This document shows positions 25,260-30,592 of a DNA stretch of 35,071 bases, one piece after another (within the stretch, counting starts at the first letter, position 1; every line of letters starts with the position of its first letter). The stretch comes from Mariprofundaceae bacterium (lineage in GTDB: Bacteria > Pseudomonadota > Zetaproteobacteria > Mariprofundales > Mariprofundaceae), in contig DQSL01000092.1 in the NCBI GenBank assembly GCA_015663235.1, forward strand, positions 1-35,071, in the 5' to 3' direction. The position numbers and the translations under genes were made by a program. Below the pieces are notes generated by a model. That model saw nothing but the letters and a program-made list of their open reading frames with translations, was not told where the DNA came from and did no database searches.

Positions 25260-26315
25260 ATGACAACCAAAAATCAAGAAGAAAACCAAGCTGGCATTAC
25301 GCAAGAAGGACGCTTTTATAGCGCTGAGCGTTTACATGCTATGCACGATATGATGCTTTATATTCGCCGCTTTGAAGAAAAAGCAGGGCAGATGTATGGC
25401 TTGAAAAAAATTGGTGGTTTTTGCCATTTATGTAATGGGCAAGAAGCTGTGTGTGTAGGTATGGAAGAAGCTTCTGAACCTGCCGACTATATGATGACTA
25501 GCTACCGTGATCACGGGCATATTATTGCGCGCGGTTCAGATCCAACTGCGATTATGGCGGAGTTACTTGGTAGGGCTGGTGGCGTTGTGGGCGGCAAAGG
25601 TGGCTCCATGCACATGTTTGATAAAGAAAAGAACTTTGCGGGCGGCAATGGTATCGTGGGTGAGCAAGTGCCGATTGGTACAGGTTTCGCATTTGCCAGC
25701 AAATACAACGATGATAAACGTGTATCGATTACCATTATGGGTGATGGTGGTGTGAATCAGGGTGCAGTATATGAGTCATTTAACATGGCGGCACTTTGGA
25801 AGTTGCCCGTGGTGTTTGTCATCGAAAACAATCAATATGCTATGGGTACATCATTGAGCCGCGCATCGGCTGAAACACATCTTTATAAACGTGGCATTTC
25901 TTTCAAAGTGCCTGGGATTCAAGTTGATGGCATGGACGTGTTGGAAGTGGAACGCAAAATGGCAGAAGCTTTGGAACATGCGCGTTTAGGTAAAGGCCCG
26001 ATGATTGTGGAAATGATGACATACCGTTATCGCGGACATTCGATGTCTGACCCTGCAACTTACCGTACCCGTGATGAAGTGGATGAATGGCGCTCAGGTC
26101 GTGACCCTATCGTACGTTTGCAAAAGCAAATGATTGAAGCGGGGCTTGCAACAGAAGCTGATTTTAAACAAAAAGATAAAGATATTAAGAAAGAAGTCGT
26201 GGCAGTGGCGAAAGCTGCGGAAGCACAACCTGAACCAGACCTTTCTGCATTGTGGGATGATATTATTACCGATGAAATTCCCAATGCATACCCATATCCA
26301 AGGCAGGTGGGCTAA
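25260..26315 (+). CDS. pdhA: Pyruvate dehydrogenase E1 component alpha subunit
   Basis: This is the TPP-binding alpha subunit of a heterotetrameric E1, which decarboxylates pyruvate and passes acetyl to the lipoyl arm. The 351-residue protein has YRDHGH near 82-87, [10 protein letters not shown], the TPP/Mg motif GDGGVNQG (161-168) ending with NN (190-191), and the flexible loop [15 protein letters not shown]. The pyruvate rather than branched-chain call rests on [10 protein letters not shown] and the complete pdh gene set. GGGGA precedes ATG 25260. It begins a four-gene unit. Confidence 0.95.
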
Positions 26316-26317
26316 TT

Positions 26318-27298
26318 ATGGCTAAGATTACGTATCGTGAAGCATTAAATCAGGCAATGTGCCAAGAAATGGAGCGTGATGAACGCGTATTTCTGATGGG
26401 CGAAGAAGTGGCGGAATACAATGGTGCATACAAAGTATCACAAGGCATGTTGGACAAGTTTGGCCCACGTCGTGTGATAGACACGCCAATTACCGAGTTA
26501 GGTTTTGCTGGGCTTGGTGTGGGAGCAGCGATGGCTGGATTGCGTCCTGTGATTGAGTTTATGACTTGGAACTTTGCGATTCTTGCAGCCGATCAAATCG
26601 TCAATGCAGCAGCCAAGATGAAATACATGACGGGTGGTCAATATGATTGCCCTATGGTCTTTCGTGGTGCTGGTGGTGCGGCGGCGCGTGTAAGTTCGCA
26701 GCATTCCCAAGCCTTTGAAAATTGGTATGCCAATATCCCAGGTTTGAAGGTGGTCATGCCATCCAACCCTGCAGATGCCAAAGGTTTGTTGGCGGCATCC
26801 ATTCGTGACAACGACACTGTAATTTTCATCGAAAATGAGATGAACTATGGTGATATTGGCGAAGTGCCAGAAGGCGACTATATCATTCCTTTGGGCAAAG
26901 CGGATATTAAACGCGTGGGTAAAGATATAACGCTAATTGCACACTCGCGCATGACGGGTTATGCACTGCTTGCGGCTGATGAATTGGCGAAACAAGGCAT
27001 TGATGCCGAAGTGATTGACCCGCGCACCATTCGCCCATTGGATGAAGCAACGATTCTAACATCGGTTGCCAAAACCAATCGGGCAGTGGTGATTGAAGAA
27101 GGCTGGCGATTTGCAGGAATTGGCGCAGAGATTTCAGCGCGAATTATGGAAAAAGGTTTTGATGATTTGGATGCACCAGTTGCGCGTGTAACGGGTAAAG
27201 ATGTGCCGATGCCATATGCAGCAAACCTAGAAAACTATGCATTACCATCTGTTGCTGAAATCGTTGAAGCAGCGCGTGTTGTATGCAACAGAGCCTGA
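26318..27298 (+). CDS. pdhB: Pyruvate dehydrogenase E1 component beta subunit
   Basis: This is the partner of the alpha subunit. The 326-residue protein has [38 protein letters not shown], the pyrimidine domain with IEFMTWN and [12 protein letters not shown], and the C-terminal transketolase domain with [11 protein letters not shown] and [11 protein letters not shown]. These are standard E1-beta blocks. It starts two bases after pdhA and is followed by an 88-base spacer that contains a hairpin repeat before pdhC. Confidence 0.96.
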
Positions 27299-27324
27299 GT
27301 TATTAGATTGATAAATGATTTAAG

Positions 27325-27366
27325 CCACCAAGTCACCAAGGTTTTTCCTTCGTGTTCTTCGTGGTG
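27325..27366. repeat. Intergenic hairpin repeat, copy 1 (before pdhC)
   Basis: CCACCAAG...CACCAAGG is followed after a short T-rich loop by CCTTCGTGTTCTTCGTGGTG, forming an imperfect inverted repeat of about 18 bases per arm. The same element occurs before lpd at 28714-28774. Short arms built of CACCAAG/CTTCGTGG are seen as dispersed intergenic repeats in many proteobacteria; that family link is an inference. It lies between the pdhB stop and the pdhC ribosome site. Confidence 0.7.
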
Positions 27367-27386
27367 AAACCCTAAAGAGGTAAACC

Positions 27387-28700
27387 ATGCCGATTGATAT
27401 TTTTATGACCCAATTATCACCAACCATGACGGAAGGTAAAATTGCGCGTTGGCTGAAAAAAGAAGGCGACACACTTGAATCAGGCGAAGTCATGCTTGAA
27501 GTAGAAACCGACAAAGCAACCATGGAAGTGGAAGTCATTGACGAAGGCATTTTGCATAAAATCATTGCCCCTGAAGGTGCGTTGGTTGTTGTGGGTACGG
27601 CTATTGGTGTGATTGCCGAAGAAGATGAAGAAGTGCCTGCGGATTACGAGCCTGAAGGCAGTGGACAAGAACCAGAATTGGAAACACATGGCACACCTGC
27701 GGCTGTGGAAGCAGAGCCCACGCCAACCGTTGTTCCAGTGCCTGCGGAAGTAGCGCCGCAAGCACCTGTGGATACGGCGGCAGTTGAACGCTCAGCCAAT
27801 GATAAACGCATCAAAGCATCACCTTTAGCCCGCCGTTTGGCGAAACAAAAAGGTATCAATATCGCAGCCATTACAGGCACAGGTCCTAGAGGCCGTATTG
27901 TTAAGGCGGATATTGAAAATGCAGCCAAACGTGGCATCAATTTAGGTGGTGCATCATTTGTTGCACCAACAACAATTCGTCCCATTCCTGCTGGAGCTAT
28001 GCCATATCATGCCGATGAATATGAAGCCATTGAAAACAGCATGATGCGCAAAGCCATTGCGCGCCGTTTAACCGAATCCAAGCAACAAGTCCCACACTTC
28101 TATTTAAGTATTGATGTGGCGATGGATAGGTTGATGGATTTGCGCGCCCAGCTCAATGAAGCTGCTGATGGTGCTTTCAAGTTAAGTGTGAATGATTTTA
28201 TCGTCAAAGCGGTATCCAAAGCTTTGGTAGACGTGCCTGCGGCGAATGCATCATGGGCTGATTCACATACCTATCAACATAAACATGCACATATCTCTAT
28301 TGCTGTGGCGATTGAAGGTGGTTTGATTACACCGATTGTTCGTTTTGCCGAGCAAAAAAGTATTGTTGATGTTTCCAATGAAATTAAAGAATTGGCGGGT
28401 AAAGCTCGCGCTGGAAAATTAAAACCTGAAGAATACACAGGCGGCACATTCTCGATTTCAAACTTGGGTATGTATGGCATCAAACAATTCCAAGCCATTG
28501 TGAATCCACCTGAAGGTGCGATTTTGGCAGTGGGCGGCACAGACGAACGTGCAGTGGCTGAAAATGGGCAAGTGGTGGTCAAAAAAATGATGACCTTAAC
28601 CCTTTCGTGTGACCATCGTGTCGTTGATGGCACGGTAGGTGCTGAATACTTGAACGCATTGAAAAAACACATCGAATGCCCTGCGAGTGTATTGATTTAA
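27387..28700 (+). CDS. pdhC: Dihydrolipoyllysine-residue acetyltransferase (E2 of pyruvate dehydrogenase)
   Basis: E2 is the core of the complex: its lipoyl arm takes acetyl from E1 and passes it to CoA. The 437-residue protein has one N-terminal lipoyl domain (1-80, lipoylated lysine 43 in VETDKATME), an Ala/Pro-rich linker, the E1/E3-binding domain (KASPLARRLAKQKGINI to GRIVKADIE, about 143-178) and the catalytic domain from about 213. The last holds HAHISIAVAIEGGLITPIV, FSISNLGMYGI and the active-site DHRVVDG. GAGG precedes the ATG. Its lipoyl domain is nearly copied at the start of lpd. Confidence 0.97.
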   Translation: MPIDIFMTQLSPTMTEGKIARWLKKEGDTLESGEVMLEVETDKATMEVEVIDEGILHKIIAPEGALVVVGTAIGVIAEEDEEVPADYEPEGSGQEPELETHGTPAAVEAEPTPTVVPVPAEVAPQAPVDTAAVERSANDKRIKASPLARRLAKQKGINIAAITGTGPRGRIVKADIENAAKRGINLGGASFVAPTTIRPIPAGAMPYHADEYEAIENSMMRKAIARRLTESKQQVPHFYLSIDVAMDRLMDLRAQLNEAADGAFKLSVNDFIVKAVSKALVDVPAANASWADSHTYQHKHAHISIAVAIEGGLITPIVRFAEQKSIVDVSNEIKELAGKARAGKLKPEEYTGGTFSISNLGMYGIKQFQAIVNPPEGAILAVGGTDERAVAENGQVVVKKMMTLTLSCDHRVVDGTVGAEYLNALKKHIECPASVLI

Positions 28701-28713
28701 ATATTGAATAAAA

Positions 28714-28774
28714 CACCACCAAGCCGCCAAGCTATCAAGGGAAATCCTTTGTGTTCTTCGTGTTCTTCGTGGTG
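28714..28774. repeat. Intergenic hairpin repeat, copy 2 (before lpd)
   Basis: CACCACCAAG at 28714-28723 pairs with CTTCGTGGTG at 28765-28774 with one mismatch; inside, CAAGG pairs with CCTT around GAAAT. The right arm contains a small internal tandem (TGTTCTTCG twice). It is the counterpart of the repeat at 27325-27366 and shares the following GAGGTAAACCATGCC with it. Confidence 0.7.
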
Positions 28775-28795
28775 AACCTATAAACGAGGTAAACC

Positions 28796-30592
28796 ATGCC
28801 AATTGATGTATTTATGACCCAATTATCACCAACCATGACCGAAGGAAAAATTGCACGTTGGTTGAAAAAAGAAGGCGATACACTTAAATCAGGTGAAGTG
28901 ATGCTTGAAGTGGAAACTGACAAGGCGACCATGGAAGTGGAAGTCATTGATGAAGGCATCATGCATAAAATCATCGCTCAAGAAGGCGATTTGGTGCCGG
29001 TGGGTACTGCGATTGCAGTGATTGCTGAAGATGACGAAGAAGTCCCTGCTGATTACCAACCTGAAAACTTATCAGGTGAAGCGCCAACTACTGATGCACC
29101 CGTTGCAACGCCCCAAGAAGTTGTGGAAACATTGGCTGCTGCACCTTCATCGGATGAAGAACATGAATTAAACCTCAAACCAGCGGGTGTGTATAACCCT
29201 GATGGTGAGTATGACATTGTGGTGATTGGCTCAGGTCCTGGTGGTTATGTGGCTGCGATTCGCGCCGCACAACTGGGTTTGAATGTAGCTTGCATTGAAT
29301 CCACACATTTGGGTGGCATTTGTTTGAACTGGGGTTGTATTCCGACCAAAGCATTGTTACGCACGGCTGAAATCATCAATGTCATTCAACATAGTGGTGA
29401 TGAGCTTGGGCTTGGTATTAGCGAAGCCAAACCTGACTTGGTGAAAGCAGTGGCACGCTCACGTAAAATATCTGCCAAACTTAATGGTGGCATTGGTTTC
29501 TTGTTCAAGAAAAATAAAGTCACCCATATTGAAGGTTATGCTACCTTTGAAGCTGACAACAAATTGATGGTTGAGAAAGATGGCAAGAAAACACGGGTCA
29601 CTGCTAAACATGTGATTGTGGCAACAGGCGCAAGAGCGCGCGCATTCCCGGGCATGGATGTGGATAACGATGTTATCATCACTTACAAACAAGCTTTAGC
29701 ACCAACCAAATTACCCAAACATTTGGTGGTCATTGGTTCGGGTGCGATTGGTATGGAATTCGCATACTTCTACAAAGCGATGGGCTCTGAAGTGACTGTG
29801 ATTGAAGCTGCACCGCAAATCTTACCATTGGAAGATGAAGAGATTTCAAAAGTGGTTGCCCGCTCATTTAAGAAAAATAAAATTAAAATCATCACCAATG
29901 CCATGGTTTCATCTGCAAAAAATGTGGATGGTAAAGCTGTGGTGGAATACACGGTGAAAGATAAAGCACAAACTATTGAAGGCGATATTTGTTTGGTTGC
30001 CGTTGGTGTCGTGGGTAATACTGATAGTATTGGCGCTGAAAACACAGCCATGAAAGTGGAGCGCCAGCAAATTGAAGTGGATGACTACTACCGCACTGAC
30101 CATCAAGGCATTTATGCGATTGGTGATGTGATTGGCGCACCTGCTTTGGCGCATGTGGCAAGCCATGAAGGCATTGTCTGCGTAGAAGCGATTCATGGCG
30201 GCACGCCACATCCTGTGGATTATGGCAATGTACCTGGTTGTACTTATTGTCAGCCTCAAGTCGGTTCATGTGGTAAAACAGAGAAACAATGCAAAGAAGA
30301 AGGTTTGGACATCAAAGTAGGGCGCATGGCATATAGCACCAATGGTAAAGCGATGGGTTTAGCGGAAACAGAAGGTATGGTCAAAACTATCTTTGATGCG
30401 GAAACAGGCGAACTCTTGGGCGCACATATTGTGGGTGCTGAAGCCACTGAGTTGATTGTATCCTTGCAACTTGCGCGCACTTTGGAAACTACGGAAGCAG
30501 AGTTAGCGCATCATATGTTCCCGCATCCAACGTTGTCTGAGATGATTCATGAATCTGTATTGGATTCAGAAGGTAAAGCGATTCATATCTAA
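28796..30592 (+). CDS. lpd: Dihydrolipoyl dehydrogenase with N-terminal lipoyl domain (E3)
   Basis: E3 reoxidises the dihydrolipoyl arm with NAD+. The 598-residue protein is a fusion: a lipoyl domain (1-80, lysine 43), a linker to about 135, and a flavoprotein disulfide reductase. The reductase has the FAD motif VVIGSGPGG (142-150), the redox pair C176/C181 in GGICLNWGCIPTK, the NAD motif VVIGSGAIGMEFA, GIYAIGDVIG and the C-terminal HPTLSE with the catalytic histidine. Lipoyl-E3 fusions are known in several bacterial groups. An unusual cluster of four cysteines (C482, C485, C492, C499) lies in the dimer domain. A terminator follows 27 bases after the stop. Confidence 0.96.
   Translation: MPIDVFMTQLSPTMTEGKIARWLKKEGDTLKSGEVMLEVETDKATMEVEVIDEGIMHKIIAQEGDLVPVGTAIAVIAEDDEEVPADYQPENLSGEAPTTDAPVATPQEVVETLAAAPSSDEEHELNLKPAGVYNPDGEYDIVVIGSGPGGYVAAIRAAQLGLNVACIESTHLGGICLNWGCIPTKALLRTAEIINVIQHSGDELGLGISEAKPDLVKAVARSRKISAKLNGGIGFLFKKNKVTHIEGYATFEADNKLMVEKDGKKTRVTAKHVIVATGARARAFPGMDVDNDVIITYKQALAPTKLPKHLVVIGSGAIGMEFAYFYKAMGSEVTVIEAAPQILPLEDEEISKVVARSFKKNKIKIITNAMVSSAKNVDGKAVVEYTVKDKAQTIEGDICLVAVGVVGNTDSIGAENTAMKVERQQIEVDDYYRTDHQGIYAIGDVIGAPALAHVASHEGIVCVEAIHGGTPHPVDYGNVPGCTYCQPQVGSCGKTEKQCKEEGLDIKVGRMAYSTNGKAMGLAETEGMVKTIFDAETGELLGAHIVGAEATELIVSLQLARTLETTEAELAHHMFPHPTLSEMIHESVLDSEGKAIHI

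Follow-up and report, generated by a model that had tools for sequence, protein, structure and literature searches.

Concerted evolution of the lipoyl domains of E2 and E3 in the pyruvate dehydrogenase of Zetaproteobacteria, most likely by recurrent gene conversion

In the window analyzed here, which is the whole stretch of 35,071 nucleotides of contig DQSL01000092.1, the genes pdhA, pdhB, pdhC (E2) and lpd (E3) of the pyruvate dehydrogenase (PDH) are consecutive (cf. Table 1), and both E2 and E3 begin with a lipoyl domain (LD). How did two different enzymes come to carry nearly the same domain, and what keeps the copies alike? A sequence-only reading of this DNA had proposed that a recent segmental duplication of a unit comprising a hairpin, a ribosome site and the LD gave E3 its own swinging arm, with the hairpin as a possible recombination site, and that gene conversion might keep the copies similar. 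The named relatives of the E3 gene belong to Ghiorsea and Mariprofundus, and the source of the window is a Ghiorsea-like zetaproteobacterium. A Pfam search placed PF00364 at residues 7-76 of E3 (E 1.3e-15), followed by a complete enzyme body (Pyr_redox_2 and Pyr_redox_dim) that is matched by chains 3ii4, 1dxl and others at residues 137-598. Another E3 gene sits side by side with a lipoyl-bearing E2 of its own on contig C85 of the same genome, which suggests that the PDH is the complex served by the LD-bearing E3. The lipoyl-lysine motif is preserved in each LD, and purifying selection on both is strong; therefore, both are most likely lipoylated swinging arms, as judged from sequence, and the one on E3 would take part in active-site coupling.

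The two copies are as similar as had been claimed. The first 90 residues of E2 and E3 differ at nine positions (81/90 identical), and the DNA forms a direct repeat (27374-27656 and 28783-29065) of 283 nt that is 86% identical without gaps. The changes are mostly synonymous (dN 0.056, dS 0.85), and the likeness stops at about codon 90. The 13-mer GAGGTAAACCATG has two exact matches in the 1.81-Mb genome, and these are the E2 and E3 starts, so the ribosome site is indeed shared. The hairpins agreed with the earlier description only in part: both are real, folding at -15.7 kcal/mol (E2) and -21.4 kcal/mol (E3), but they differ in length and are 79% alike over 42 nt.

Table 1 Features of the PDH locus; positions are those of the window unless a genome and locus are named
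Feature	Position	Strand	Basis or remark
pdhA, E1 alpha subunit of pyruvate dehydrogenase	25260..26315	+	Pfam E1_dh, E 7e-106
pdhB, E1 beta subunit, without LD	26318..27298	+	Pfam Transket_pyr, Transketolase_C
Hairpin 5' of E2, belonging to an intergenic repeat that is dispersed and variable	27322..27366	+	Fold z -5.2; survey of relatives
E2 ribosome site and ATG, GAGGTAAACCATG	27377..27389	+	Exact 13-mer
pdhC, E2 dihydrolipoyl acetyltransferase: LD, E3-binding domain, catalytic core	27387..28700	+	Pfam Biotin_lipoyl, E3_binding, 2-oxoacid_dh
E2 LD, ETDKATME lipoylation motif	27387..27656	+	Repeat alignment, Pfam, residue comparison
Hairpin 5' of E3, distinct from the E2 hairpin and of greater length	28713..28775	+	Fold z -3.7; relatives
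E3 ribosome site and ATG, GAGGTAAACCATG	28786..28798	+	Exact 13-mer
E3 LD, ETDKATME motif, putatively homogenised partner of the E2 LD	28796..29065	+	Repeat alignment, Pfam, LD tree
lpd, E3 dihydrolipoyl dehydrogenase with N-terminal LD	28796..30592	+	Pfam Pyr_redox_2, Pyr_redox_dim, Biotin_lipoyl
LD-less PDH E2	G038 L164:1856-2782; G040 L120:1519-1692		Right after pdhB

The comparison was extended to 118 LDs from 63 zetaproteobacterial genomes, 55 of which supplied both copies. All 118 could be aligned gap-free from the same start residue, with the TDKAT motif intact and in register. Monophyly of the E2-LDs was rejected (delta lnL 339, AU p 4e-52). In the tree, where many branches are weak and the alignment is short (261 nt), the starred branches force at least 10 label changes, and the E2 and E3 LDs of one genome are sisters in G026 (100/96), G020 (100/100), G008 (97/83) and others. 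The pattern depends on the distance between genomes: pairs at a catalytic distance below 0.06 always grouped by gene (100%), whereas beyond 0.15 by-genome grouping reached 98-100% and by-gene grouping fell to 0-2%. The by-gene grouping at short distances shows that the test carries no bias towards grouping by genome. Paralogues are thus closer than orthologues beyond a catalytic distance of 0.15 and not within Ghiorsea. Furthermore, the LD distance within genomes stayed at about 0.18 (0.17-0.22) while that between orthologues climbed from 0.06 to 0.28, and a flat paralogue distance against a rising orthologue distance characterises paralogues undergoing a reset from time to time.

The best-surviving alternative, though an improbable one, is that no exchange took place and that the same selection, imposed by common partners and lipoylating enzymes, together with shared codon bias kept the copies alike. 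Purifying selection on the LDs is indeed strong, and the protein constraint is real, E2 and E3 LDs being already 80% identical across genomes. However, synonymous codons at shared residues matched in 62% of cases within a genome, compared with 47% expected from its own codon usage and 50.5% across genomes; the excess was found in 54/55 genomes against the codon-usage expectation and in 53/55 against the cross-genome value (p about 1e-10). The rejection of E2 monophyly held within the low-GC3 (p 8e-4) and middle-GC3 (p 3e-42) groups of genomes and at the protein level (p 7e-4). Hence composition was ruled out as the cause, by the codon-usage expectation and the GC-matched trees, and the by-gene grouping of close genomes likewise speaks against likeness without exchange. 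Concerted evolution of the E2 and E3 LDs, with recurrent gene conversion as its most likely cause, best explains the LD tree, the GC-matched trees, the synonymous excess and the distances across the class, which bears out the suggestion that conversion keeps the copies alike.

The synonymous excess ends at the LD end. Upstream of the start codon, likeness across the class is weak and extends over about 30 nt (p 0.003), and in G017 both genes are preceded by one and the same unusual ribosome site. Conversion would accordingly be confined to the LD, at times including the ribosome site, and since the E2 and E3 catalytic regions fall into separate Pfam families, only the LD could exchange. For conversion tracts, which the sequence-only reading had recommended looking for, the signal was modest: the longest-run test gave a combined p of 1e-4, but single genomes reached p<0.05 in 6/55 cases, against 3.7% in cross-genome controls, and the genome of the window was not among them (p 0.49).

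Several genomes deserve separate mention. The two in which E2 and E3 are unlinked and both LDs are present disagree, G020 being homogenised and G039 not. G020 has E2 on C21 (L163) and E3 on C11 (L100), at least about 17 kb apart, and its LDs are sisters with full support; either conversion acted over that distance or the genes moved apart afterwards. The fragmented assemblies of G024 and G033 (L158-L161) break within the LD, and in G024 the contig ends on the E2 side and the E3 side have 24 identical bases in common. Breaks at this place are to be expected if identical stretches occur in the two copies; the observation is compatible with recent identity but may have arisen by chance. Conversion from E2 to E3 in G008, hinted at by the tree, was not significant (AU p 0.23).

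To date the LD on E3, 78 genomes of the class were searched for the E3 subfamily of the window, with a cut-off of E <= 1e-180. The subfamily was matched in 66/78, and every member with a complete start carries the LD, while the nearest E3 relatives outside the class do not. This result also bears on a second alternative, less probable still, in which E3 lost its LD and regained it several times by new fusions from the adjacent E2. Such fusions would yield the same tree, and the E2 and E3 genes are usually adjacent; however, no LD-less intermediate was seen among the start-complete genes of the class, the gap-free register of all LDs speaks against it, and the tract signal, albeit modest, lies inside the LD. 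The duplication is ancient, older than the family and probably also than the divergence of f1 and f3 in the order. Within the 13 Ghiorsea genomes, the LDs separate cleanly into an E2 clade and an E3 clade (support 100/99), the very outcome that the sequence-only reading had named as refuting its recent duplication; the E2-LD of G000 is nearest to that of G009, its E3-LD to those of G006/G011, and the copies in the window are not closer to each other than to the orthologues of relatives. A recent segmental duplication of hairpin, ribosome site and LD in this lineage, attractive in view of the DNA identity, the common ribosome site and the similar hairpins, is therefore refuted by this by-gene clustering and highly improbable also given the class-wide LD-bearing E3, the dS between the two LDs, and the different or missing hairpins of close relatives. 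What stands of the proposal is that E3 has its own LD, copied at some point in the past from or to that of E2.

The hairpin fared no better as a component of what was duplicated. Hairpins of the same kind are present at another, unrelated locus, between cysK-like and moeB-like genes (L071:1453-1519 and 2363-2436). Intergenic hairpins of the type CCACNAAG..CTTNGTGG occur at both PDH sites and at L071, and sister species have different hairpin sequences at the same site (CCACCAAG or CCRCAGAG types), from which the element seems to have been replaced in place. At the same two sites, relatives have this hairpin, another one, or none. An element of the pattern CCRC..GTGG, which is loose and can miss degenerate copies (e.g. 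in G006), was found at both genes in 15 genomes, at one in 15 and at neither in 25, with corresponding LD identities of 0.827, 0.800 and 0.811; strict hairpin patterns found few copies, and an Rfam search with the hairpin gave no RNA family match. Homogenisation is thus equally strong without the element, and since the hairpin-free G026, G020, G035 and G096 are among the clearest homogenised genomes, the hairpin is not needed for recombination, contrary to the role first assigned to it.

Taken together, we consider it very likely that an old duplication was followed by recurrent, LD-confined gene conversion in Zetaproteobacteria, with both arms most likely lipoylated. In the PDH operon of this class, E2 and E3 each have an N-terminal LD, and since the duplication the two LDs would have been re-homogenised repeatedly within genomes of separate lineages, so that the copies seem younger than they are. 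In the genome of the window, the last homogenisation would be older than the Ghiorsea core species.

In two genomes, G038 (98% complete) and G040, E2 has lost its LD and begins directly at the E3-binding domain, starting 27 and 8 bases, respectively, after pdhB. The LD-bearing E3 of G038 is unlinked to E2 (L104:3909-5450) and accounts for one of four PF00364 matches in that genome. Of the remaining ones, a frame of 400 residues with an additional match to the E2 core is probably an E2 that serves a different complex, a 167-residue frame is probably AccB, and a weak match in a 246-residue frame is probably GcvH. E3 thus carries the only LD found in G038 that is specific to the PDH, and the E3 arm is probably the sole PDH arm of this genome; its LD-less E2 makes it testable whether an arm on another subunit can serve the PDH. 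An LD-bearing E3 was not found in G040, perhaps for lack of sequence. G028 (93% complete) has an LD-bearing E3 (L108:53-1858) whose LD branch is among the longest, and no match to PF00198 (E2 core) was found in this genome.

Outside Zetaproteobacteria, the best LD matches were often tandem pairs, which by frame length and order are read as an LD-bearing E1 beta and an LD-bearing E2; with E1 beta as query, the matches include records of Sinorhizobium, Paracoccus and Novosphingobium whose annotation is PDH E1 beta. The textbook case of an LD on E1 beta is Zymomonas. E1 beta and E2 LDs appear homogenised within genomes of the alphaproteobacterial type (L233-L250). In 17 genomes with such LDs, E2-LD monophyly was rejected (AU p 4e-6), and synonymous matches amounted to 68%, against 55% expected and 54% across genomes. 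In Alphaproteobacteria, too, the PDH thus has a second LD beside that of E2 with the same concerted pattern, but on E1 beta instead of E3, and by these sequence criteria the two architectures behave alike. It is an even chance that wherever a PDH bears LDs on two subunits, recurrent conversion keeps them interchangeable and one can take over the entire function, as in G038, where E3 has the sole PDH-specific LD found.

An LD-bearing E3 as such is an already known kind of protein. It is cited for Neisseria meningitidis (P64k) and Alcaligenes eutrophus/Ralstonia (PdhL) in a paper that also places the LD of the Mycoplasma hyopneumoniae PDH on E3 (PdhD) (PMC7873978). P64k and PdhL share the N-terminal position of the LD with the E3 of the window. 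Nevertheless, the body of the latter is nearer to LD-less E3 (3ii4, E 3e-109; 1dxl, E 3e-100) than to P64k (1bhy, E 7e-65; full-length LD-bearing 5u25, E 7e-70), and since its nearest relatives outside the class also have no LD, the zetaproteobacterial fusion probably arose independently of the Neisseria/Ralstonia type. G038 has its PDH LD on E3 as M. hyopneumoniae does, whereas most Zetaproteobacteria keep LDs on both E2 and E3, and only G038 and perhaps G040 are similar to the mycoplasma. Concerted evolution of the LD is a different matter: we found no report of it, nor any paper that connects lipoyl domains with it or with gene conversion, in a search that most subscription journals lay outside. 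The case is a warning against dating duplications by similarity and provides a natural clock for bacterial conversion. As in other duplicated genes that evolve in concert, paralogues of the same genome are more alike than orthologues; in contrast to the usual duplicates, it is here one small module that is kept alike, class-wide, in two enzymes of one complex that are unrelated apart from it and whose remaining parts diverge in the normal way.
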